Of a DNA stretch of 42,391 nucleotides, positions 20,479-34,220 are shown piece after piece. The notes under the pieces are model-generated. The model saw only the letters and a list, made by a program, of their open reading frames with translations, did no database searches and was not told the DNA's origin. Within the stretch, counting starts at the first letter, position 1. The number at the start of each line of letters is the position of its first letter. The position numbers and the translations under genes were made by a program. This DNA is from an uncultured archaeon (lineage in GTDB: Archaea > Halobacteriota > Methanosarcinia > Methanosarcinales > Methanoperedenaceae): the NCBI GenBank assembly GCA_902384525.1, contig CABMCA010000102.1:1-42391 (forward strand), in the 5' to 3' direction.

Positions 20479-23475
20479 ATGACTGACGAAGATAAGACAA
20501 GAGAACAACTTATAACTGAATTGGTGGAACTGCGCAAAATAATTGCTGAACTGGAGACATCAAGAGTTCAGCGTAATCAGATGGAAGAAGCACTTCGCGA
20601 ATCGCATAATCGCTTTTTTACAGGAGATAGTTACATCCGCGCTGCACTGGTATGCAGCGCGATCACATTGATCCTCGGTACCCTGGCGATGACAGGATGG
20701 GTGACAGGCATGTATTATCTTGCCAGCTTGGGCTTGAGTTTCATCCCTATGGCTCCCGGCACATCACTGGCATTTATCCTTCTGGGGGGCTCATGGTTCT
20801 TCTATCTCCGCGCACCCTCACGTAGATTGACCAGGGTTAGCGTTCTGACTTCGGCACTTTTTGTTTTTCTTTTAGCACTTCTGAATCTCATCCAGTTTCT
20901 TGCAGGCGTTAATACGGGTATTGAAGAGTTTTTGGTTCGCAGAGTTCTGGTCATCGGGCCTGATATATACGGCGCTGGTCCCATGTCTCCCCTTACTGCT
21001 TTCAACTTTGTTCTCGCTTGCTCTGCAATGCTTTTATTACTTACTGCCGCACGACGCATGGGCGGGTTATCAGGCGGCTTTGTCTCTGTTATAACCTCAG
21101 TGAATCTGGTAGTTCTGTTGGGGTATTTGTATGGTACGCCTATACTTTTTGGCGGGGAGACAAGACCAGTGGCGCTCCATACGGGGGTAACGTTTTTGTT
21201 TCTGAGCATTGGGCTTATCGCCACCATAGGTCCAGATTACTTTCCCCTGAGATTGCTGGTGGGGCCATCGTTGCGTTCGCTTTTACTTCGCTCTTTTCTT
21301 ATGGTGATATCTTTCTTCGCTCTGACTCATGCTCTTATTGAAAAACTATTCTCTCGGCTAATTGTGAACGCGGCACTTGAAACAGCGCTGGCTCTATTAA
21401 TCTCTACAGTAGTTACCGTCGCCATTGTTTTGCGATTATCGCGAACCATTGGCGGCACGATAGAGCGCGAAGAGACAGGACGCAAGAGATCTGATGAGGC
21501 GCTAAGCAAGGCATATGATGAGTTAGAGATTCGTATTCAGGAACGGACGGCAGAGTTGGCAAAGACTAACGAGACCTTGCAGGCTGAAATCACAAAGCGT
21601 AGGCGGTCTGATGAAGAAATAAAAAAAGAGAGGGATAAAGCACAAAAATATCTTGACATTGCAGGGGTTATGATTGTAGCAATTGATGTTGACCAAAAAA
21701 TTACCCTTGTAAATAAAAAGTGCTCTGAGGTATTAGGCTGCGGTGAGCAGGAGATTATCGGCAAGAACTGGTTTGATACTTTCATTCCCGAAAGAGTAAG
21801 GGATGAAGTAAAAGCTGTTTTTGAAAAGTTGATGGCTGGAAAGATCGAGTCTGTTGAATCTGTTGAAAATCCTGTTCTGACAAGGAGAGGCGAGGAGAGA
21901 TTGATTGCCTGGCATAATACTATACTGAGAGATGAGGCAGGTGATATCGCAGGTACTCTGAGTTCAGGAGAAGATATAACAGAGCACAGGGGGGCTGAAA
22001 AGAGACTCTCTCTCCTGGCATCCATTGTAGATTCCTCAGACGATGCAATCATCGGCAAGACTCTGGATGGCATCATTGTGAGCTGGAACCGGGGTGCTCA
22101 GAAAATATACGGCTACTCAGCCGATGAAGTCAAGGGTCAGTCAATTTCTATTCTGGCCCCGCCAGATCATCCAGACGAGGTTTCCCAACTTCTCGAAAGA
22201 ATACGGCAGGGGCAGCGCATCGAGCACCATGAAACCAGACGTATGAGAAAAGATGGTAAAAATATCTGCGCCTCCTTAACCATTTCTCCAATAAAGGATG
22301 CCACTGGCAAGATTATAGGCGCCTCAACGATTGCATGGGATATAACAGAACAAAAGCGAATTGAGAGAGCCCTGCGTGAGTCAGAAGCAAGATTCCGTTC
22401 AATTACGCAGTCAGCGACAGATGCAATTATTTCTGCAGATAGTGATGATAATATAATTTCATGGAATAAAAGTGCACAAACCATCTTTGGCTATACGGAA
22501 GAAGAAGCTCTTGGTAAATCACTTACGATAATAATCCCTGAAAGATACAGGGATGCCCACAAAAAGGGATTGGAGCGAGTTAATTCTACAGGTGAAACAC
22601 GGATTATTGGAAAAACGGCTGAAATGGTTGGAATGAGAAAAGACGGCAGTGAATTTCCTCTGGAGCTTTCCCTATCTACCTGGAAAACAGGAATAAGAAG
22701 ACTTTATAGTGCCGTCATCAGAGATATTACCGAAAGCAAACAAGCAAATGAGAAATTGAAACAAACATTAACGGAGTTGGAGCGCTCCAATAAGGATCTG
22801 GAGCAGTTTGCCTATGCTGCATCTCATGACCTTCAGGAACCGCTGCGCACTGTGTCAAATTTCAGCCAGCTCCTGGCAAAGCGCTATAAAGGCGAATTAG
22901 ATGCGAAAGCTGACCAGTTCATCGGCTTCATTGTAGATGGAACCACAAGGATGCAGGAAATGATCGATAACTTGCTTACATACTCACGAGTTAGTACACG
23001 CGCTAAACCATTCGAACCGACCGATTTTAAAACCGTATTTGATCAGGCATTGGCTAATGTGAAGATGGCTATTGAGGAAAGTGGCGCTCTTGTGACACAC
23101 GATCCTCTGCCCACCGTAATGGCTGACGCTTCACAGATGGTTCAGCTATTTCAAAACCTTTTCAGTAACGCAATTAAATTCAGAAAAGAAAAACCCCGTA
23201 TTACAGTATCGGCTTCTCAGAGAGGAAATGAATGGCTTTTCTCAGTGCAAGACAACGGAATAGGCATCGCTCCGGAATTCATGGAACATATCTTCAAAAT
23301 GTTCCAGCGCGAACACGCAAGTTCCGAATATCCGGGCACGGGCGTTGGTCTTGCAATTTGCAGGAAGATCGTGGAACGTCATGGCGGCAGGATATGGGTT
23401 GAGTCACAGGCAGGCAAAGGTTCGACTTTTTACTTCACAATACCTGTCAGGAAAGGTGAAAGAGAACGAACATGA
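20479..23475 (+). CDS. membrane sensor histidine kinase with three PAS domains
   Basis: This 998-residue protein has, in order: a short coiled coil (residues about 5-45), a membrane domain of about eight helices (55-320) resembling integral-membrane sensor (MASE-like) domains, a coiled coil (325-385), PAS 1 (about 387-505), PAS 2 (508-630), PAS 3 (634-755), a HisKA domain with the phospho-acceptor His783 in AYAASHDLQEPLRT, and a HATPase domain (about 875-994) with the N box NLFSNAIKF, G1 box VQDNGIGIAPEF and G2 box YPGTGVGLAICRKIVERHGG. It should autophosphorylate in response to a membrane or small-molecule signal sensed by the membrane or PAS domains; the ligand is unknown. Its stop overlaps the next kinase start by ATGA. 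Confidence 0.93.
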   Translation: MTDEDKTREQLITELVELRKIIAELETSRVQRNQMEEALRESHNRFFTGDSYIRAALVCSAITLILGTLAMTGWVTGMYYLASLGLSFIPMAPGTSLAFILLGGSWFFYLRAPSRRLTRVSVLTSALFVFLLALLNLIQFLAGVNTGIEEFLVRRVLVIGPDIYGAGPMSPLTAFNFVLACSAMLLLLTAARRMGGLSGGFVSVITSVNLVVLLGYLYGTPILFGGETRPVALHTGVTFLFLSIGLIATIGPDYFPLRLLVGPSLRSLLLRSFLMVISFFALTHALIEKLFSRLIVNAALETALALLISTVVTVAIVLRLSRTIGGTIEREETGRKRSDEALSKAYDELEIRIQERTAELAKTNETLQAEITKRRRSDEEIKKERDKAQKYLDIAGVMIVAIDVDQKITLVNKKCSEVLGCGEQEIIGKNWFDTFIPERVRDEVKAVFEKLMAGKIESVESVENPVLTRRGEERLIAWHNTILRDEAGDIAGTLSSGEDITEHRGAEKRLSLLASIVDSSDDAIIGKTLDGIIVSWNRGAQKIYGYSADEVKGQSISILAPPDHPDEVSQLLERIRQGQRIEHHETRRMRKDGKNICASLTISPIKDATGKIIGASTIAWDITEQKRIERALRESEARFRSITQSATDAIISADSDDNIISWNKSAQTIFGYTEEEALGKSLTIIIPERYRDAHKKGLERVNSTGETRIIGKTAEMVGMRKDGSEFPLELSLSTWKTGIRRLYSAVIRDITESKQANEKLKQTLTELERSNKDLEQFAYAASHDLQEPLRTVSNFSQLLAKRYKGELDAKADQFIGFIVDGTTRMQEMIDNLLTYSRVSTRAKPFEPTDFKTVFDQALANVKMAIEESGALVTHDPLPTVMADASQMVQLFQNLFSNAIKFRKEKPRITVSASQRGNEWLFSVQDNGIGIAPEFMEHIFKMFQREHASSEYPGTGVGLAICRKIVERHGGRIWVESQAGKGSTFYFTIPVRKGERERT

Positions 23476-25535
23476 AGGAATCCAGTAAAGCTGCAGGGCC
23501 TGAGATATTTCGCCAGCGCGGCGACCCCGATATATTACATGAAAAACCGCATAATCACTTTATTAATGGGGATATTTACAGCCGCACTGCACTGGTATGC
23601 AGCGCGATCACATTGATCCTCGGTACCCTGGCGATGATAGGCTGGTTGATGGGTATTCGCAGTCTTACCAGCTTCGTCCCGGGTTACATCCCGATAGCGC
23701 CAGGCGCTGCACTGGCATTTATCCTGCTGGGTGGTGCGTGGTATCTTTATGCCCGTGCGCCCTCGCGACGGTTCACCAAGATATACGTGCTGGTTTCGGT
23801 GTTCTCCACCTCACTCATTGCACTACTCAACCTCATCCAGTTTCTCACAGGCGCTAATGCAGGCATTGAAGAGTATTTCACTCGGGCTGTTCTTACCATC
23901 GATCCCGGAACTTACGGTGCAGGGCCCATGTCTCCTATTACCGCTGTCAGCTTTCTTCTTATTTGCGTTGCTACAGTTCTGCTATTATTCGTACCTCGAT
24001 ATCGTGCAGGTTTATCATCCGGCATGGCGTCTGTTGTTGTCTCGGTGGGCCTGGTAGTTCTTATGGGGTATTTGTACGGGACACCGCAGCTCTATGGCGG
24101 TGGATACAGATATGTGGCTCTTCCTGCGGGGGTTATGTTCGTGTTCCTGGGCACAGGGATTATAGCTGCTGCTGGTCCAGAGCATTTTCCCCTGCGGCTG
24201 CTGGTCGGTCCCTCGATACGCGCACTCTTAATGCGCTCTTTTCTCCTGGTGATATTCGTCGTTATCCTGATTGATGGTACATTCCATTCCCTGTTATTAC
24301 GATTAGGGCTAACTGAGGCTCTCAGAGCAGCGATGTCGGCATTAATTGCCCTGGCGATCACCAGCGTTGTTATTTCACAGATATCACGCGTCGTGGGCGG
24401 TGCTATGGATCGAACAGAAGCAGAGCGCAAGCGGACAGAGCAGGCGCTGCTGAAAAGCGAGCAGCTCTACCGTTCGCTATTTGGAAATATGTTGGATGCG
24501 TTTGCGTACTGCAAGATGCATTTTGATGATCAAGGCCGTCCGGTAGATTTTGTTTATCTTGAAGTCAACAGTGCATTTGAAAAGTTGACTGGCCTGGAAA
24601 ATGTGATAGGCAAAAAAGTCACCCAGGTGATTCCGGGGATCAAAGAGTCATATCCAGACTTGTTTGAGATTTATGGCCGGGCAGCGTTGACGGGCAAGCC
24701 GGAGAAATTCGAAATCGATTTCAAGCCTCTGAGGGCATGGTTCTCCATTTCAGTTTATAGTATTGAAAAGGAATACTTTGTAACTGTTTTTGACAACATC
24801 ACGGAGCGTAAGCGAGCTGAGGAAGAACTGAAGAAGAGAACTGAGGAATTAGCCCGCTCGAATGCAGAGCTTGAACAGTTCGTCTACATAGCCTCTCATT
24901 ACCTTCAGGAACCGCTGCGTACTGTGTCAAATTTCAGCCAGCTTCTGGCAAAGCGCTATAAAGGCGAATTGGATGCGAAAGCTGACCAGTATTTCAGCTT
25001 CATAGTAGATGGAACTTCAAGGATGCAGCAAATGATCGATGACTTGCTTGCGTACTCACAAGTAATTGCACGCACTAAACCATTCGAACCAACCAATTGC
25101 GAAACAGCATTTGATCAGGCATTGACTAATGTGAAGATGGCTATTGAGGAAAGTGGCGCCCTTGTGACGCACGATCCTCTGCCCACCGTAATGGCTGACG
25201 CTTCACAGATGGTTCAGTTATTTCAAAACCTTTTCAGTAATGCAATTAAATTCAGAAAAGAAAAACCCCGTATTACAGTATCGGCTGTCCAGAGAGGAAA
25301 TGAATGGCTTTTCTCAGTGCAAGATAATGGGATAGGTATAGCTCCGGAATTCATGGAATATATCTTCAAAATGTTCGAGCGCGAACATGCAAGTTCCGAA
25401 TATCCAGGCACAGGCGTTGGTCTTGCGATTTGTAAGAAGATTGTGGAACATCATGGTGGCCGGATCTGGGTTGAATCTGAGCAAGGTAAGGGAACAACAT
25501 TCTATTTCACAATACCAGCGAAAAGAGTTGAATAA
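23472..25535 (+). CDS. paralogous membrane histidine kinase with one PAS domain
   Basis: This 687-residue kinase is a shorter sister of the preceding one. It has the same eight-helix membrane domain (residues about 38-315), a single PAS-like domain (about 330-445), a HisKA domain with His476 and a HATPase domain ending at the C terminus with the N, G1 and G2 boxes intact. In the H box the usual Asp after His is Tyr (IASHYLQEPLRT versus AASHDLQEPLRT in the sister), which may affect phosphotransfer or phosphatase activity. The membrane domain and kinase core share long near-identical DNA with the upstream gene while the middle differs, so one arose from the other by duplication with loss or gain of PAS domains. 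The two probably sense related signals. Confidence 0.92.
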   Translation: MKESSKAAGPEIFRQRGDPDILHEKPHNHFINGDIYSRTALVCSAITLILGTLAMIGWLMGIRSLTSFVPGYIPIAPGAALAFILLGGAWYLYARAPSRRFTKIYVLVSVFSTSLIALLNLIQFLTGANAGIEEYFTRAVLTIDPGTYGAGPMSPITAVSFLLICVATVLLLFVPRYRAGLSSGMASVVVSVGLVVLMGYLYGTPQLYGGGYRYVALPAGVMFVFLGTGIIAAAGPEHFPLRLLVGPSIRALLMRSFLLVIFVVILIDGTFHSLLLRLGLTEALRAAMSALIALAITSVVISQISRVVGGAMDRTEAERKRTEQALLKSEQLYRSLFGNMLDAFAYCKMHFDDQGRPVDFVYLEVNSAFEKLTGLENVIGKKVTQVIPGIKESYPDLFEIYGRAALTGKPEKFEIDFKPLRAWFSISVYSIEKEYFVTVFDNITERKRAEEELKKRTEELARSNAELEQFVYIASHYLQEPLRTVSNFSQLLAKRYKGELDAKADQYFSFIVDGTSRMQQMIDDLLAYSQVIARTKPFEPTNCETAFDQALTNVKMAIEESGALVTHDPLPTVMADASQMVQLFQNLFSNAIKFRKEKPRITVSAVQRGNEWLFSVQDNGIGIAPEFMEYIFKMFEREHASSEYPGTGVGLAICKKIVEHHGGRIWVESEQGKGTTFYFTIPAKRVE

Positions 25536-25537
25536 GT

Positions 25538-25969
25538 ATGAAAGCCTTTGAGATTTTATTAGTTGAGGACAACCAGAGCTATGTGAGCCTGATGATGGAA
25601 GCACTTGAGGAAAGTCAGGTGCTTACTAATATGAACGCGGTGATGGATGGGGCGGAAGCAATGGCTTTTCTGCGCCGGGAAGGTGAGCATGCCCATGCGC
25701 CTCGACCCGATCTTATTGTATTAGACCTGAACTTGCCGAAGATAAAAGGCCAAAAGGTATTGGAAGAAGTTAAGAATGATTCTGACCTGAAACGCATCCC
25801 GGTTGTAATCTTTACGGTTTCAAGTGCAGAACAGGATATTCTCAAGAGTTATAATTCTCATGCTAACTGTTATATCATTAAGCCAAAGACACTCGATCGG
25901 TTTATAGAGGTAGTTAAGTCGACCATAAATTTTTGGTTCAGTGTTGTGCAACTTCCTCCAGGTGAATAA
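25538..25969 (+). CDS. single-domain response regulator (Rcp1-like)
   Basis: This 143-residue receiver has no output domain. The acidic pocket is VEDN (residues 9-12), the phospho-acceptor is Asp63 in LIVLDLNLPKIKG, the Ser/Thr position is IFTVSSAEQD, and the lysine is in YIIKPKTL. The spacing and the insert after the second helix resemble Rcp1-type receivers that work with phytochrome-like kinases. It lies 2 nt after the second kinase. It probably receives phosphate from one or both kinases and acts by protein contact or passes the phosphate on. Confidence 0.93.
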   Translation: MKAFEILLVEDNQSYVSLMMEALEESQVLTNMNAVMDGAEAMAFLRREGEHAHAPRPDLIVLDLNLPKIKGQKVLEEVKNDSDLKRIPVVIFTVSSAEQDILKSYNSHANCYIIKPKTLDRFIEVVKSTINFWFSVVQLPPGE

Positions 25970-25970
25970 A

Positions 25971-27029
25971 ATGGAACGTATCAAAGTCCTGCTGATTGAA
26001 GATAACCCGCCAGATGCTGTATTTATAGAGGAAATGCTGGCTGAGGCAAAAGAATTTTCGTTCGATGTGGAGTGGAAAGAAAAGCTTTCGATTGGACTGG
26101 AACGCCTTGCTAAGAAAGGGGTTGACGTAGTTCTACTGGATCTCAATCTACCTGACAGCAAGGGCTTTAGTACTTTTACAAAAACGCTTGCTCAGGCACC
26201 TGAAATACCAATCATAATATTAACCGGTCTTGATGATGAAACGCTTGCAATCAGAGCTGTTAGAACAGGCGCACAAGATTATCTGATCAAGAAACATGTA
26301 GATAGAGGCCTGCTGGTACGTACCATTCGCTACGCCATTGCGCGCAGGATGGGAGGAGAGAGGCGCTTCACAATAGAGGAATTGAAAGAATATGATGGAA
26401 AAGAAGGAAAGCCAGCGTATGCAGTCCTCAAAGGAAAAGTCTATGACGTTTCAAGCAGTCCTCTCTGGAAAAATGGAATTCATGCAGGTAAACACTCCGC
26501 AGGTGTTGATTTAACAGAGAGCATGTTAAGTGCGCCTCATAGTGAAGAAATATTATTAAAATTCCGCATCATCGGAGAATTGGGCAAGGAAAAGTCTTTA
26601 GGACAGAAACTGTTGCTGAAATTAGAGACGTTGCATCCTCATCCAATACTGGTTCATTTTCCCATAGCTTATTCTATCGGTGTTTCACTATTATCGCTTC
26701 TATACGTTTTCACAGGCAAAATTCCTTTTGAAATAGGATCATATTACATGCTTTTTCTGGGATTTTTATCAACTCCTTTTGCTGGACTCTCTGGCTTTTT
26801 TTCCTGGAAAGTCACTTACGAAGGGAAGATGACTAAAATTTTCGCAAGAAAAATAATATTTACTGTTGCGTTGATTGCTGTTATCACTACATGTTTTGTA
26901 TGGCGAACTCTGAATCCAGATGTACTTGTACCAACAGGCTTAAACTACGTTTACTTAACGCTGGTATTGAGTTTAGTACCTATAGTCACGATTCTTGGAT
27001 ATGATGGAGGAGAAATAGTTTATACTTAA
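25971..27029 (+). CDS. receiver domain fused to cytochrome b5-like domain and DUF2231-type membrane domain
   Basis: This 352-residue protein starts at ATG 25971, one nt after the previous stop. Residues 4-125 are a receiver: IEDNPPD, Asp57 in DVVLLDLNLPDSKG, ILTGLDDE and DYLIKKHVD. Residues 133-203 resemble a short cytochrome b5-like heme-binding domain: FTIEELKEYDGKEGKPAY, VYDVSSSPLWKNG, and histidines 171, 175 and 190 (candidate heme ligands, the last in SAPHSEE). Residues 217-350 resemble DUF2231: LHPHPILVHFPIAYSIG followed by four membrane helices, with histidines 222, 224 and 229. The frame is open throughout with no sign of a sequencing join. Phosphorylation at Asp57 may alter the heme or membrane part. 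The fusion is the end point of the kinase cassette; its redox partner is unknown. Confidence 0.85.
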   Translation: MERIKVLLIEDNPPDAVFIEEMLAEAKEFSFDVEWKEKLSIGLERLAKKGVDVVLLDLNLPDSKGFSTFTKTLAQAPEIPIIILTGLDDETLAIRAVRTGAQDYLIKKHVDRGLLVRTIRYAIARRMGGERRFTIEELKEYDGKEGKPAYAVLKGKVYDVSSSPLWKNGIHAGKHSAGVDLTESMLSAPHSEEILLKFRIIGELGKEKSLGQKLLLKLETLHPHPILVHFPIAYSIGVSLLSLLYVFTGKIPFEIGSYYMLFLGFLSTPFAGLSGFFSWKVTYEGKMTKIFARKIIFTVALIAVITTCFVWRTLNPDVLVPTGLNYVYLTLVLSLVPIVTILGYDGGEIVYT

Positions 27030-27182
27030 TTTGTTGCGGTGCATAACCGCTATTGCTGTCGATTCTTTTATTTGCAAACTTTACGCCGACTCGCAGCAGT
27101 CTTGATTTCTTCTAACACCCGCAGACTTAACAGAACCGCAGTGTTTCCTGCGTGTCAATCTAAACGATATGTATGAAGCAGT

Positions 27183-27419
27183 TCATTCCATCTCTCGAAT
27201 ACTGACAACACCATGCTTAAAGACCACTATTTTCTTCGGCTTTTTCGATTTTATATCCTTCGTTTCTATCAGAATAAGTTCGTACTTGCTATATTCAATC
27301 AATACACCAGTTATTGTTTTTCCGCTAAATGTTTCGCAAACAACTATTTTATTGATTAAATCAGATAAATATTCTGATTGCTGTAACTTTTCATTCCTGA
27401 TTATTTCCTTTTCAGCCAT
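27183..27419 (-). CDS. Hfq/LSm-like RNA-binding protein
   Basis: This 78-residue protein has the two Sm motifs. A helix (SEYLSDLINK) is followed by strands IVVCETFSGKTITGVLIEYS, a YELILIE strand, and the closing IVVFKHGVVSIRE. The VFKHGVVSI end is close to the YKHAI signature of Hfq, as in the Hfq-like protein known from Methanocaldococcus. LSm rings bind U-rich RNA and in bacteria help small RNAs pair with targets. A TATA-like GGTTAAATAC (minus strand, 27450-27441) lies about 27 nt before the ATG, suggesting a leaderless single-gene transcript. The 9-residue lysine-rich linker between the motifs is longer than in bacterial Hfq. The assignment is from motif similarity only. Confidence 0.65.
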   Translation of the reverse strand: MAEKEIIRNEKLQQSEYLSDLINKIVVCETFSGKTITGVLIEYSKYELILIETKDIKSKKPKKIVVFKHGVVSIREME

Positions 27420-27608
27420 ATTTGTATCATCCCTTATTCAGTATTTAACCATATCAATCCAATCCATAAAGTTAGCCGCCAGTCTCCATAACATATCATA
27501 TCTCAAAGCTGACTGGAGATACGATAAAGTTATCCAGGAACATTACAATTACCGTCCGCCCACAAACGTTGAAATGCACCAATCTGTCCTTTCCTGTGCT
27601 TTAGAAAA

Positions 27609-27636
27609 ACTTAAAAAAAAAAATAATAATTTAAGT
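27609..27636 (-). terminator. oligo-T tract ending the amtB-GNAT-glnK operon
   Basis: On the minus strand, about 45 nt after the glnK stop, there is a run of eleven T (complement of 27613-27623) flanked by AAATTATTA and AAG. Archaeal transcription often stops at such oligo-T runs. Confidence 0.55.
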
Positions 27637-27679
27637 ATGTCAATGCCGATTAATCAATTCCATCCGGCTCCCAGCTTTT

Positions 27680-28425
<746 letters not shown>

Positions 28426-28439
28426 CTTAAATCAACTCC

Positions 28440-30742
<2,303 letters not shown>

Positions 30743-30746
30743 GAAT

Positions 30747-31064
30747 ATGAAGATGATACGTGCAATAATAAGGCCAAACAAGGAAGAAAAAGTTGTTGAG
30801 CACCTGGAAAAAGAAGGGTTTGTGTCCCTCACCAAGATGAACGTGTTCGGGCGCGGCAAGCAAAAAGGGATCAGGGTAGGGACGGTATGTTACGACGAGC
30901 TGCCCAAAGTGATGCTGATGCTTGTTGTGAAGGATGAAGAAGTAACAAAAGCTGTCAACGTCATCCAGAATAGCGCACGAACCGGGAATATCGGCGACGG
31001 TAAGATATTCGTGACCGATGTTTCGGAAGCGTATACTGTGAGGACAGGCGCATCGGGATTATAG
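30747..31064 (+). CDS. nifI1: nitrogenase regulatory PII-like protein NifI1
   Basis: This 105-residue PII-family protein follows nifH by 4 nt, the standard position of NifI1. It has MKMIRAIIRPNKEEKVVEHL, a T-loop region GRGKQKGIRVGTVCYDELPK shorter and different from GlnK, and the TGNIGDGKIFVTDV B-loop. In methanogens NifI1 and NifI2 form a complex that binds nitrogenase component 1 and switches it off when ammonium appears, with 2-oxoglutarate relieving this. A Shine-Dalgarno (GGAGAGGTGA) overlaps the nifH end. Confidence 0.95.
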   Translation: MKMIRAIIRPNKEEKVVEHLEKEGFVSLTKMNVFGRGKQKGIRVGTVCYDELPKVMLMLVVKDEEVTKAVNVIQNSARTGNIGDGKIFVTDVSEAYTVRTGASGL

Positions 31065-31072
31065 GTGAAAAT

Positions 31073-31450
31073 ATGAAGGAAGTTATCGCTATAATCCGAA
31101 GGCACAATTTGCAGGAGACCAAGGCAGGTCTTCTTGGAATAGGTATTCCAGCGATCACAATGGTGAGCGTGGAAGGACGAGGCAAACAGAAAGGACTGCC
31201 TGGCTGGAATTATGAGCTTGATCCCGCATTAATGGAACTGGAGGAGAAAAATACTGGTGTCAGCATGCGCTTTATCCCAAAAAGGATGATTTCAACAGTG
31301 GTCGAGGATGAGGATGTACAAAAAGTGGTTGAGACCATAATTAGAACGAATCAGACAGGGCATATTGGAGATGGCAAGATCTTCGTGTGTCCTGTGGAAG
31401 GTGCAATGAGAGTAAGAACAGGAGAGAACGGAGAACAGGCGATCAAATAA
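31073..31450 (+). CDS. nifI2: nitrogenase regulatory PII-like protein NifI2
   Basis: NifI2 (125 residues) pairs with NifI1 to switch nitrogenase off after an ammonium shift. It starts MKEVIAIIRRHNLQETKAGL, has VEGRGKQKGLPGWNYEL and an enlarged T-loop insert (about residues 45-75, ending FIPKRMISTVVEDED), and the B-loop TGHIGDGKIFVCPV. The longer loop is typical of NifI2 and distinguishes it from NifI1. It starts 8 nt after nifI1. Confidence 0.95.
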   Translation: MKEVIAIIRRHNLQETKAGLLGIGIPAITMVSVEGRGKQKGLPGWNYELDPALMELEEKNTGVSMRFIPKRMISTVVEDEDVQKVVETIIRTNQTGHIGDGKIFVCPVEGAMRVRTGENGEQAIK

Positions 31451-31455
31451 TTAAG

Positions 31456-31482
31456 AACCACAGAGCGCACAGAGGAAAAGGA
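31456..31482 (+). repeat. CCACAGAG-type repeat unit before nifD
   Basis: AACCACAGAGCGCACAGAGG, followed by AAAAGGAG, lies between nifI2 and nifD. It matches the arms of the inverted repeat at 34573-34640 and supplies the nifD Shine-Dalgarno (GGAG). It appears to be a unit of a dispersed element. Confidence 0.65.
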
Positions 31483-31490
31483 GTAAAAAA

Positions 31491-32861
31491 ATGACAACAA
31501 TATTACCTGAATGCGACATACCCATACCGCAGCGTAAGCCACACATTATTTGTCATGATCCGGAGAATATCGTATTGCCCATGTGCAATATCCAGACAGT
31601 CCCGGGCGACATGACCGAGCGCGGCTGCACGTTCGCAGGATGCAGGGGCGTAGTTGGCGGGCCTGTAAAGGACGCAATACAACTGGTGCACGGACCGATT
31701 GGATGCGCCTACTATACATGGGGCACGCGCAGGAACCTCTCAGACACGAAGCTGCACAGAAAGTACTGCTTCAGTACTGACCTGACAGAAGAAAGTGTGA
31801 TATACGGCGGTGCAAAAAAGCTGCTAAATTCTATTATAGAGTCGCATGAACTCTTTCCGGAAGGAAAAGCGGTATTCGTGTATTCCACATGCGTGGTCGG
31901 GCTGATCGGTGATGATACCGAAGCCATATGCAAGCAGGCCCAAGAAAAGATCGGGATACCCGTGATACCTTTCCATTGCGAAGGTTTCAGGGGCGTGAGC
32001 CAGTCCCTGGGGCATCACATCGCCAACCGGACCCTATTTGAGAAAGTTGTTGGAACAGAAGAACCGCAAGAGACCACACCATACGACATGTGCATAGTCG
32101 GTGAATTCAACATCGACGGCGATGCGTGGATCATCAAGCCGTTGTTTGAACGAATGGGCGTGAGGGTTCTCTCGGTATTTACAGGCAATGCTTCATATAG
32201 TGATATTCCACCCATGCACAGGGCAAAGCTGAATATCGTGCAGTGCCAGAGGTCATCCACCTACATCGCAAAGATGATCCAGGACAAGTACGGAGTCCCA
32301 TATATCAACGTATCCCTGTTTGGCATGACTCAAACTGCACAAGCTCTTCGAGATGTGGGAAAATTCTTCCGTCTTGAAGAAAATGCAGAAAAAGTAATAG
32401 CAGAAGAGCTTGCATTGTACCAATCCAGGATCGATCACTATAGGAAGAAACTTGAAGGTAAGAAGTGCTTCATATACCAGGGAGCTCCGCGCGCCTGGCA
32501 CTGGATTGGACCAATGCTGGAACTGGGCATCGAAACTATCCTCACTGCTACCACGTTCGGTCATAAGGACGACTATGAAAAAATAATGGAAAGGGCAAAG
32601 CCAGGACATATCTGCATAGATAATCCAAATGCTCTTGAAATAGAGGAATATCTGGTAAAGCTCAAGCCTGATTTTTTTATCGGAGGATTGAAGGAGAAAT
32701 ACCTGACCTACAAGCTTGGCATTCCCTTTATCAACGGCCATTCCTACGAAGAAGGACCTTATGCAGGTTTTGAGGGATTCGTGAATTTCGCAAAGGACAT
32801 TGATGTTGCAGTGAACAGCCCTGTGTGGAAGTTCATAAACGAGCCACTGGAGGTGAAGTAA
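31491..32861 (+). CDS. nifD: nitrogenase component 1 alpha subunit NifD
   Basis: At 456 residues this NifD lacks the insert of clostridial forms. P-cluster ligands are Cys46 (ERGCTFAGC), Cys72 (HGPIGC) and Cys134 (YSTCVVGLIGDD). Cofactor ligands are Cys252 (NIVQCQRSSTYI) and His417 (FINGHSYEEGPY). Residues around the cofactor follow the Mo enzyme: Arg80-Arg81 (WGTRRN), Gln171 and His175 (FRGVSQSLGHHIAN). But other parts resemble V/Fe-only enzymes: AYYTWGTRR, the loop Q-G-A-P-R (330-334) with Pro where MoFe has Leu, AWHW, and FGHKDDYEK. No anfG/vnfG delta subunit is present. It is a true N2-reductase subunit by its ligands; metal type is uncertain, with Mo more likely. Confidence 0.93.
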   Translation: MTTILPECDIPIPQRKPHIICHDPENIVLPMCNIQTVPGDMTERGCTFAGCRGVVGGPVKDAIQLVHGPIGCAYYTWGTRRNLSDTKLHRKYCFSTDLTEESVIYGGAKKLLNSIIESHELFPEGKAVFVYSTCVVGLIGDDTEAICKQAQEKIGIPVIPFHCEGFRGVSQSLGHHIANRTLFEKVVGTEEPQETTPYDMCIVGEFNIDGDAWIIKPLFERMGVRVLSVFTGNASYSDIPPMHRAKLNIVQCQRSSTYIAKMIQDKYGVPYINVSLFGMTQTAQALRDVGKFFRLEENAEKVIAEELALYQSRIDHYRKKLEGKKCFIYQGAPRAWHWIGPMLELGIETILTATTFGHKDDYEKIMERAKPGHICIDNPNALEIEEYLVKLKPDFFIGGLKEKYLTYKLGIPFINGHSYEEGPYAGFEGFVNFAKDIDVAVNSPVWKFINEPLEVK

Positions 32862-34220
32862 ATGGCTTTGAACGAGAGTTCTGCACCTATTAAGACGGTT
32901 CGTAAAACTCGAAGCGTCACGATCAATCCGCCCAGGATGTGCCAGCCTATGGGCGCCATACTTGCTTACATGGGAGTTAACGGATGCGTTCCGCTGGTGC
33001 ATGGTTCCCAGGGATGCAGCACCTACCCCCGCTACAATATCGCGCGCCATTTCAGGGAATCAGCAGAAGTTGCAGTTTCCTCTCTGGCTGAGGATGCTGC
33101 CGTATATGGCGGGGCCAGGAACCTGACAGAAGCCATAAAGAACATCAAGTCCAGGCTGAACCCCGCTGCCATTGGCATCTGTACTACGTGCATGAGCGAG
33201 ACCATAGGCGACGATGTGAAACTGATATCAAAGAAGGCGCTGACCGATGATACTATGAAGATATTCCCTGCATCTACGCCAAGTTATGTTGGAACGCATC
33301 TTACAGGATATGATAATGCCCTGAAGACGCTTGTAGAAACAATGGCAGTCAAGGGTGAGCCAAATAATAAAATAAACATTATCACGGGAATAATCAACCC
33401 GGGCGACATCAGGGAGATAAAGAACATGCTGCGATTAATGAATGTGCAAACCATTTTCCTTTCAGACATCTCCGAAACCCTTGATACTCCCATATTGCCT
33501 GGCGGGCACAAACCATTACTGCCTGACGGAGGGACAAGTCTTACCGACATCGCGGATTCTGCAAATTCACTGGGTACAATCGCGATTTGCAGGACAGCAG
33601 GTTCTGCCGCAACGTATCTTCAGAACAAGTTCAAAGTCCCTGCTGTGCTTGCTCCGGCGCCCATAGGGGTTGCAAACACTGACAAGTTCGTGCAAAACAT
33701 CAGCATGTTAAGTGGCGCATCGATCCCTGATGAGATCAAGAAAGATCGCGGGCGCCTGATAGACAGCATGGTGGACGTTCATCACTATATGTACGGGCGA
33801 AAAGTCGGGATTTTCGGCGACCCTGATCTTGTGTCAGCCATCGTAAGATTCTGCGCTGAAGCAGGGATGAACCCCACCGTTGCTATGACTGCAACGAAAC
33901 ATAAGGATTTTGCGCCTGACATAAAGGCAGTAAATGGTGAATATAAGACAGATACGCAGATCCTTGAAGGTACAGACCTGTACGAATTCCACGAGGTTGT
34001 AAAAGCGCAGGGGGCAGAACTGATACTTGGCAACTCAAAGGGCAAGGACGTTGCAGATGATGAGGGTGTTCCGCTCGTGCGCTTTGGATTCCCTGTTTAT
34101 GACCGTGTTGGTGTGTACAGGTATTCCATTATGGGATATAATGGTTCGATATACCTGCTTGACCAGATGACTAACGCCATCCTGGGACACAGGTATGACC
34201 CGGATAAGCTGCACCAGTAA
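32862..34220 (+). CDS. nifK: nitrogenase component 1 beta subunit NifK
   Basis: NifK (452 residues) begins directly after the nifD stop. P-cluster cysteines are Cys27 (PPRMCQPMGAI), Cys52 (VHGSQGCSTYPR) and Cys110 (TTCMSETIGDD), with a serine in STPSYVGTHLTG at the place of the P-cluster serine. RGRLIDSMVDVHHYMYGR, GDPDLVSAIVRF, LILGNSKGKD and LVRFGFPVYDRVGV are typical NifK. It is shorter than Azotobacter NifK (523), lacking the long N-terminal extension, as in many anaerobe and alternative enzymes. With NifD it forms the alpha2beta2 core. Confidence 0.95.
   Translation: MALNESSAPIKTVRKTRSVTINPPRMCQPMGAILAYMGVNGCVPLVHGSQGCSTYPRYNIARHFRESAEVAVSSLAEDAAVYGGARNLTEAIKNIKSRLNPAAIGICTTCMSETIGDDVKLISKKALTDDTMKIFPASTPSYVGTHLTGYDNALKTLVETMAVKGEPNNKINIITGIINPGDIREIKNMLRLMNVQTIFLSDISETLDTPILPGGHKPLLPDGGTSLTDIADSANSLGTIAICRTAGSAATYLQNKFKVPAVLAPAPIGVANTDKFVQNISMLSGASIPDEIKKDRGRLIDSMVDVHHYMYGRKVGIFGDPDLVSAIVRFCAEAGMNPTVAMTATKHKDFAPDIKAVNGEYKTDTQILEGTDLYEFHEVVKAQGAELILGNSKGKDVADDEGVPLVRFGFPVYDRVGVYRYSIMGYNGSIYLLDQMTNAILGHRYDPDKLHQ

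Follow-up and report, generated by a model that had tools for sequence, protein, structure and literature searches.

The window, by which we mean the whole stretch of 42,391 nucleotides that was analysed, carries an operon of four genes on the forward strand: two membrane histidine kinases, a stand-alone receiver and, in last place, a fusion protein that joins a receiver, a cytochrome b5-like domain and a DUF2231 membrane domain (Table 1). The two kinase genes overlap by 4 bases, 2 bases separate the second of them from the stand-alone receiver gene, and a single base lies between that gene and the fusion gene. This confirms that the fusion gene lies directly behind two kinases and a receiver, as a preliminary description of this DNA had stated. 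That description had also placed the three domains in one frame, and each of them scores above its Pfam cut-off; the positions given for Asp57, the three b5 histidines and the motif LHPHPILVHFP are all correct on the translation. The active site of the fused receiver is complete, and the same residues are seen in the aligned receiver-bearing homologues. With an alternative GTG start, at 25941, the protein would be ten residues longer. We prefer the ATG at 25971 because AGGTGA, which resembles a ribosome binding site, sits just upstream of it.

Table 1. Features of the operon and of the fusion protein encoded by its last gene.
Feature	Coordinates	Strand	Basis
Membrane histidine kinase 1, 998 aa, three PAS, acceptor motif SHDLQEPLR	20479..23475	+	Pfam, hydrophobic segments
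PAS of kinase 1 closest to FixL heme PAS, residues 628-760	22360..22758	+	phmmer to FixL 1D06, E 7.3e-26
Membrane histidine kinase 2, 687 aa, acceptor motif SHYLQEPLR	23472..25535	+	HisKA + HATPase_c; ~9 hydrophobic segments
Stand-alone receiver, 143 aa	25538..25969	+	PF00072, 69.1 bits
Receiver / cytochrome b5-like / DUF2231 fusion protein, 352 aa	25971..27029	+	three Pfam domains above cut-off
Receiver domain, residues 6-115, E10/D11/D57/T85/K107	25986..26315	+	PF00072, E 1.8e-17, 63.9 bits vs cut-off 30.2
Asp57, predicted phospho-acceptor	26139..26141	+	translation, alignment
Cytochrome b5-like domain, residues 134-203	26370..26579	+	PF00173, E 6.5e-7, 29.7 bits vs cut-off 23.7
His171 (26481), His175 (26493), His190 (26538), candidate heme ligands	26481..26540	+	invariant in alignment
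DUF2231 four-helix membrane domain, residues 224-351	26640..27023	+	PF09990, E 2.4e-14, 54 bits vs cut-off 26.4

Right behind the operon lies an open frame of 181 aa (27169-27714, forward strand) that has no Pfam or NCBIfam match and may not be a gene. Further downstream (28440-34220) are an ammonium transporter on the reverse strand, NifH, two P-II proteins and two nitrogenase component 1 proteins (NifD/NifK-like). These genes are 1.4-7 kb downstream of the operon, and blast found no such neighbours at the operon flanks in the other genomes.

In our searches, the order receiver, b5, DUF2231 was found only within the genus Methanoperedens, where 8 of 31 genomes carry the three-domain frame, the source genome included. 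Among the relatives, those that bear names are Methanosarcinales archaeon METP1 and Candidatus Methanoperedens, which supports an archaeal host. The proteins of the other seven assemblies are 63-93% identical over their full length, with the same frame and the same junction, and dN/dS was 0.08-0.36 in every measurable comparison across the three domains, which indicates purifying selection. The preliminary description had allowed for two separate genes, for receiver and heme domain, wrongly joined in assembly, and a b5-DUF2231 protein without a receiver does occur in one further Methanoperedens genome (G005) and in Deferribacterota. Eight independent assemblies with the three domains in one frame rule such a join out, and a receiver-b5 fusion without the membrane domain recurs in three of them; we regard an artefact of assembly or annotation as vanishingly improbable and the frame as one true gene. 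Viral contigs contained no relative. No plasmid record covers 80% of the fusion protein, all of the matches listed being receiver matches, and the DUF2231 part of a Deferribacterota relative had no match at all among plasmid records. The preliminary description knew of no protein with this domain order; our literature search, with most subscription journals outside its scope, likewise found none, and it returned no paper on DUF2231 together with cytochrome b5 and none joining a b5 domain, a response regulator and a receiver domain.

The shorter receiver-b5 proteins of three of the eight genomes (G007, G015 and G024) are soluble forms that retain all three b5 histidines, and by eye no leftover DUF2231 was recognised behind their genes in three-frame translation. 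These forms and those without a receiver are separate stable architectures. All three soluble proteins end in a basic tail. The gene for one (L037) is preceded by lipid-synthesis genes and a dihydroneopterin aldolase gene; that for another (L039) comes directly after a PAS kinase gene, which it overlaps.

Outside Methanoperedens, b5 domains of the fusion's type are frequent in Halobacteriota. Among the best-scoring and long-frame cases examined there, none carries a receiver; they are small stand-alone proteins, lipoprotein-like, or fused behind a CXXCH membrane protein. A DUF2231 above cut-off was found in one of 247 sampled Halobacteriota genomes, namely the source genome itself. In Deferribacterota, 41 of 51 genomes match the b5-DUF2231 pair, and in 38 of the 51 it forms a single full-length frame. 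Thus, the pair assumed by the preliminary description exists on its own account and appears to work in its own right, and its frequency in this phylum makes a bacterial origin plausible.

The preliminary description had made its reading depend on a b5 fold of residues 133-203. In a phmmer search against solved structures, residues 131-204 matched the Hadesarchaea b5 protein 6NZX over the whole b5 length (E 1.6e-19), and with Foldseek the b5 part of the predicted model superposed at 0.9 Å on both 6NZX (TM-score 0.94 by target length, 56% identity) and 6VZ6. As judged by homology and predicted structure, the domain has a b5 fold. This part of the earlier reading, the b5 fold, holds, as do the three histidines, but the description had overlooked that the classical ligand is missing: the first axial histidine of classical b5, in the motif HPGG, is absent, and Lys167 occupies the aligned position. 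A comparison of the family profile with classical b5 shows that HPGG is replaced by GxHxxxHxAG in the fusion's b5 family. All 32 aligned rows, archaeal and bacterial, have H171, H175 and H190, and the family profile shows these three as invariant too. H190 occupies the position of the second axial histidine, ~13 residues after the conserved AG, and aligns with the APH of the classical b5 1X3X. H190 together with either H171 or H175 would therefore be the candidate pair of heme ligands. Since the HPGG histidine is not conserved, the case for b-type heme binding rests on these alternative histidines and on the solved archaeal homologues. One of these, 6NZX, was called the smallest b-type cytochrome in a review (PMC7096707), which makes heme binding by b5 domains of this type likely, and the b5 domain of the fusion protein may bind heme as well.

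Other archaeal proteins show where b5 domains of this type can occur. Four of ~300 aa combine a CXXCH heme-c site and several membrane helices with a C-terminal b5 of the fusion's type, an arrangement that fits a role in membrane electron transfer. In three others, a Tat/lipoprotein-like start (RRKFLKSLALAGA...GC) is followed by a long Pro-Thr linker and two tandem b5 domains.

In the DUF2231 part, hydropathy and models place four helices at about 224-248, 251-282, 289-314 and 323-351, and a separate model of this part gave a confident four-helix bundle (pLDDT 87.6, pTM 0.80). The LHPHPILVHFP motif contributes H222, H224 and H229, the latter two lying at the start of TM1. H224, H229, G275, W279, Y283, K294, P337, G346 and G347 are invariant in the b5-linked DUF2231 family. 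The predicted topology is N-in, with a cytoplasmic receiver and with basic residues ahead of TM1 and in the connection from TM2 to TM3. On the models, the invariant residues would be found beneath the b5 domain, at the helix ends that face the cytoplasm or close to them, and this clustering suggests that the cytoplasmic face of DUF2231 is a functional site rather than a plain anchor. The DUF2231 model had no match in the PDB at E <= 0.001, the weak ones being cytochrome b561, cytochrome bd and soluble helical bundles; we therefore make no heme claim for this domain. A literature search returned no function for DUF2231, a family with almost no publications found. In the full-length AlphaFold2 model (mean pLDDT 83, pTM 0.48) each domain is well predicted but their mutual arrangement is not, so that no gating interface is visible.

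The conserved residues bear on another reading, in which DUF2231 does no more than keep the receiver close to the membrane kinases, and the b5 domain, possibly free of heme, acts passively as a spacer or as a module for protein binding. Such a role would suit two kinases that are both membrane proteins and a b5 domain that has lost its HPGG ligand, and Pfam describes the b5 family as heme/steroid binding, so that non-heme members are conceivable. We nevertheless think it quite improbable. The three histidines are kept throughout the alignment and the wider family, dN/dS of the b5 domain is ~0.2-0.3 where computable, and the invariant polar residues H224, H229, Y283 and K294 would be superfluous in a mere anchor. 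The soluble paralogues also weigh against it, because they keep the b5 domain and its histidines without any membrane part. With one of them encoded directly after a PAS kinase, they point to the b5 domain, and not the anchor, as the constant output.

The operon context is largely conserved. Next to the fusion gene, 7 of the 8 genomes have a stand-alone receiver, and in 6 of the 8 the run includes a histidine kinase. The exception is G007, where a kinase gene directly overlaps the fusion gene; in G015 and G024 the receiver adjoins the fusion gene, and no kinase gene was found next to the pair. In the source operon, the best PDB match of the PAS at residues 628-760 of kinase 1 is to FixL-type heme-PAS kinases, and His694 (22558-22560) aligns with the proximal histidine of FixL. 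This histidine is kept in the two closest relatives (G003 and G030); scanning the remaining operons with the same motif did not recover it. Kinase 1 scores far below the NCBIfam FixL equivalog cut-off (216 vs 850 bits), and the position aligned with Arg220 of FixL reads as Ala. A FixL-like PAS with a proximal histidine makes a heme or oxygen input possible, and kinase 1 could thus be a sensor of either. In kinase 2 the acceptor motif (24897-24902, forward strand) reads SHYLQEPLR for SHDLQEPLR, and the G003 counterpart has the same exchange of D for Y. With the acidic residue after its phospho-acceptor histidine lost, kinase 2 may be a weak or non-autonomous kinase. Both kinases start with related membrane regions of 8-9 segments (20479-21450 and 23472-24420, forward strand) that have no Pfam match.

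The same operon layout also exists with a receiver-histidine kinase protein as its last gene, on plasmids of Kovacikia minuta and Haloarcula sinaiiensis and in three Methanoperedens genomes (G007, G015 and G030); further receiver-kinase paralogues of the same subtype occur in G005 and G009. In the receiver tree, the receivers of the fusion and those of the receiver-kinase proteins fall into one clade, apart from the stand-alone receivers, which argues that the receiver was retained and the output part changed. In the b5 tree, the domains from all receiver fusions form one clade as well (support 97/92), and the receiver tree is compatible with a single or several origins of the b5-DUF2231 fusion. 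Given the shared layout, the fusion looks like an effector swap, in which a kinase output was replaced by b5-DUF2231, the direction of the swap being the one that we infer.

The kinase outputs of these homologous third genes can be taken in another way. They are signalling outputs, not enzymes, and the module may accordingly be a phosphorelay network instead of a pathway with a metabolic end. Information would then flow in reverse of what the preliminary description supposed, which took phosphorylation as the input and redox or heme control as the output: b5-DUF2231 would sense redox state, heme or quinone, the redox state of the heme would set how fast the receiver gains or loses phosphate, and the protein would be a gated phosphate sink that reports the redox state of the membrane back to the kinases. 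The FixL-like PAS of kinase 1 makes heme or oxygen sensing within the operon plausible, and a Pfam scan of the operon genes found no DNA-binding regulator among them. Receivers are, however, usually inputs to the domain behind them, and the b5-DUF2231 genes of Deferribacterota share no common neighbours beyond close relatives, which suggests that the pair works without a fixed signalling partner. We consider reverse flow unlikely, though it is the main alternative.

Taken together, we find it most likely that the fusion protein is a phosphorylation-controlled membrane b-type cytochrome. The fuller account, to which we give about an even chance, is that of a membrane-bound response regulator that arose by effector swap and in which phosphorylation gates electron transfer between b5 and the membrane domain. 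It builds directly on three domains joined in a conserved fusion, on an operon that is conserved as well, on the differing outputs of related receivers and on a b5 fold recognised by sequence and prediction. The parent layout would have been a membrane or PAS histidine kinase, a stand-alone receiver and a receiver fused to another histidine kinase, and the kinase part of the last gene would have been exchanged for the b5-like heme domain and the four-helix DUF2231. The upstream kinases, directly or via the 143-aa receiver, would phosphorylate Asp57. Once phosphorylated, the receiver could alter where the cytoplasmic b5 domain sits, what it pairs with or how accessible it is, and this change would gate the passage of electrons between the membrane domain and a soluble partner. 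In this scheme, phosphotransfer from the operon kinases, heme binding through H190 with H171 or H175, an exchange of electrons on the cytoplasmic side of DUF2231, and control running from receiver to b5 are each presumed. A stricter version, in which the response regulator itself is the membrane electron carrier and phosphorylation gates electrons via the b5 heme into or out of the four-helix domain, is tentative and in our view somewhat doubtful. On that version a two-component system would adjust redox flux directly and without transcription in a methane-oxidising archaeon, and, the upstream kinase having a FixL-like heme PAS, heme proteins could stand at either end of the pathway.

In most response regulators the final domain is a DNA-binding, kinase or nucleotide-messenger one, and Methanoperedens are archaea that oxidise methane with external electron acceptors. 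Through a receiver on a membrane heme protein, a kinase could control a membrane redox protein or listen to it. The fusion is of interest because a two-component system would here act directly on a membrane cytochrome: if the proposal is right, two-component signalling would be linked to electron transfer in methane-oxidising archaea by a direct post-translational route. DUF2231, for which our literature search found almost nothing, is now placed beside a b5 heme domain and a phospho-switch, which gives a handle on this family.

Among known systems, the archaeal b5 proteins 6NZX (Hadesarchaea YNP_N21) and 6VZ6 (Methanococcoides burtonii) share the fold and the histidines of the fusion's b5 domain at 47-56% identity but were solved as single b5 domains of ~78 residues. 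The stand-alone b5-DUF2231 proteins of Deferribacterota have the same two domains, the three b5 histidines and the HPHP..IH motif, and differ from the fusion in having no receiver. The receiver-kinase third genes share the gene order of the fusion operon, with short gaps or overlaps, and their receivers belong to the same subfamily, with up to ~70% identity within Methanoperedens; the Kovacikia and Methanoperedens operons also have SHDLQEPLR-type kinases upstream, like the fusion operon. They differ in that their output is a histidine kinase, not a heme and membrane domain. The fusion thus gives a known type of receiver a conserved output, one that our searches met in a single genus.
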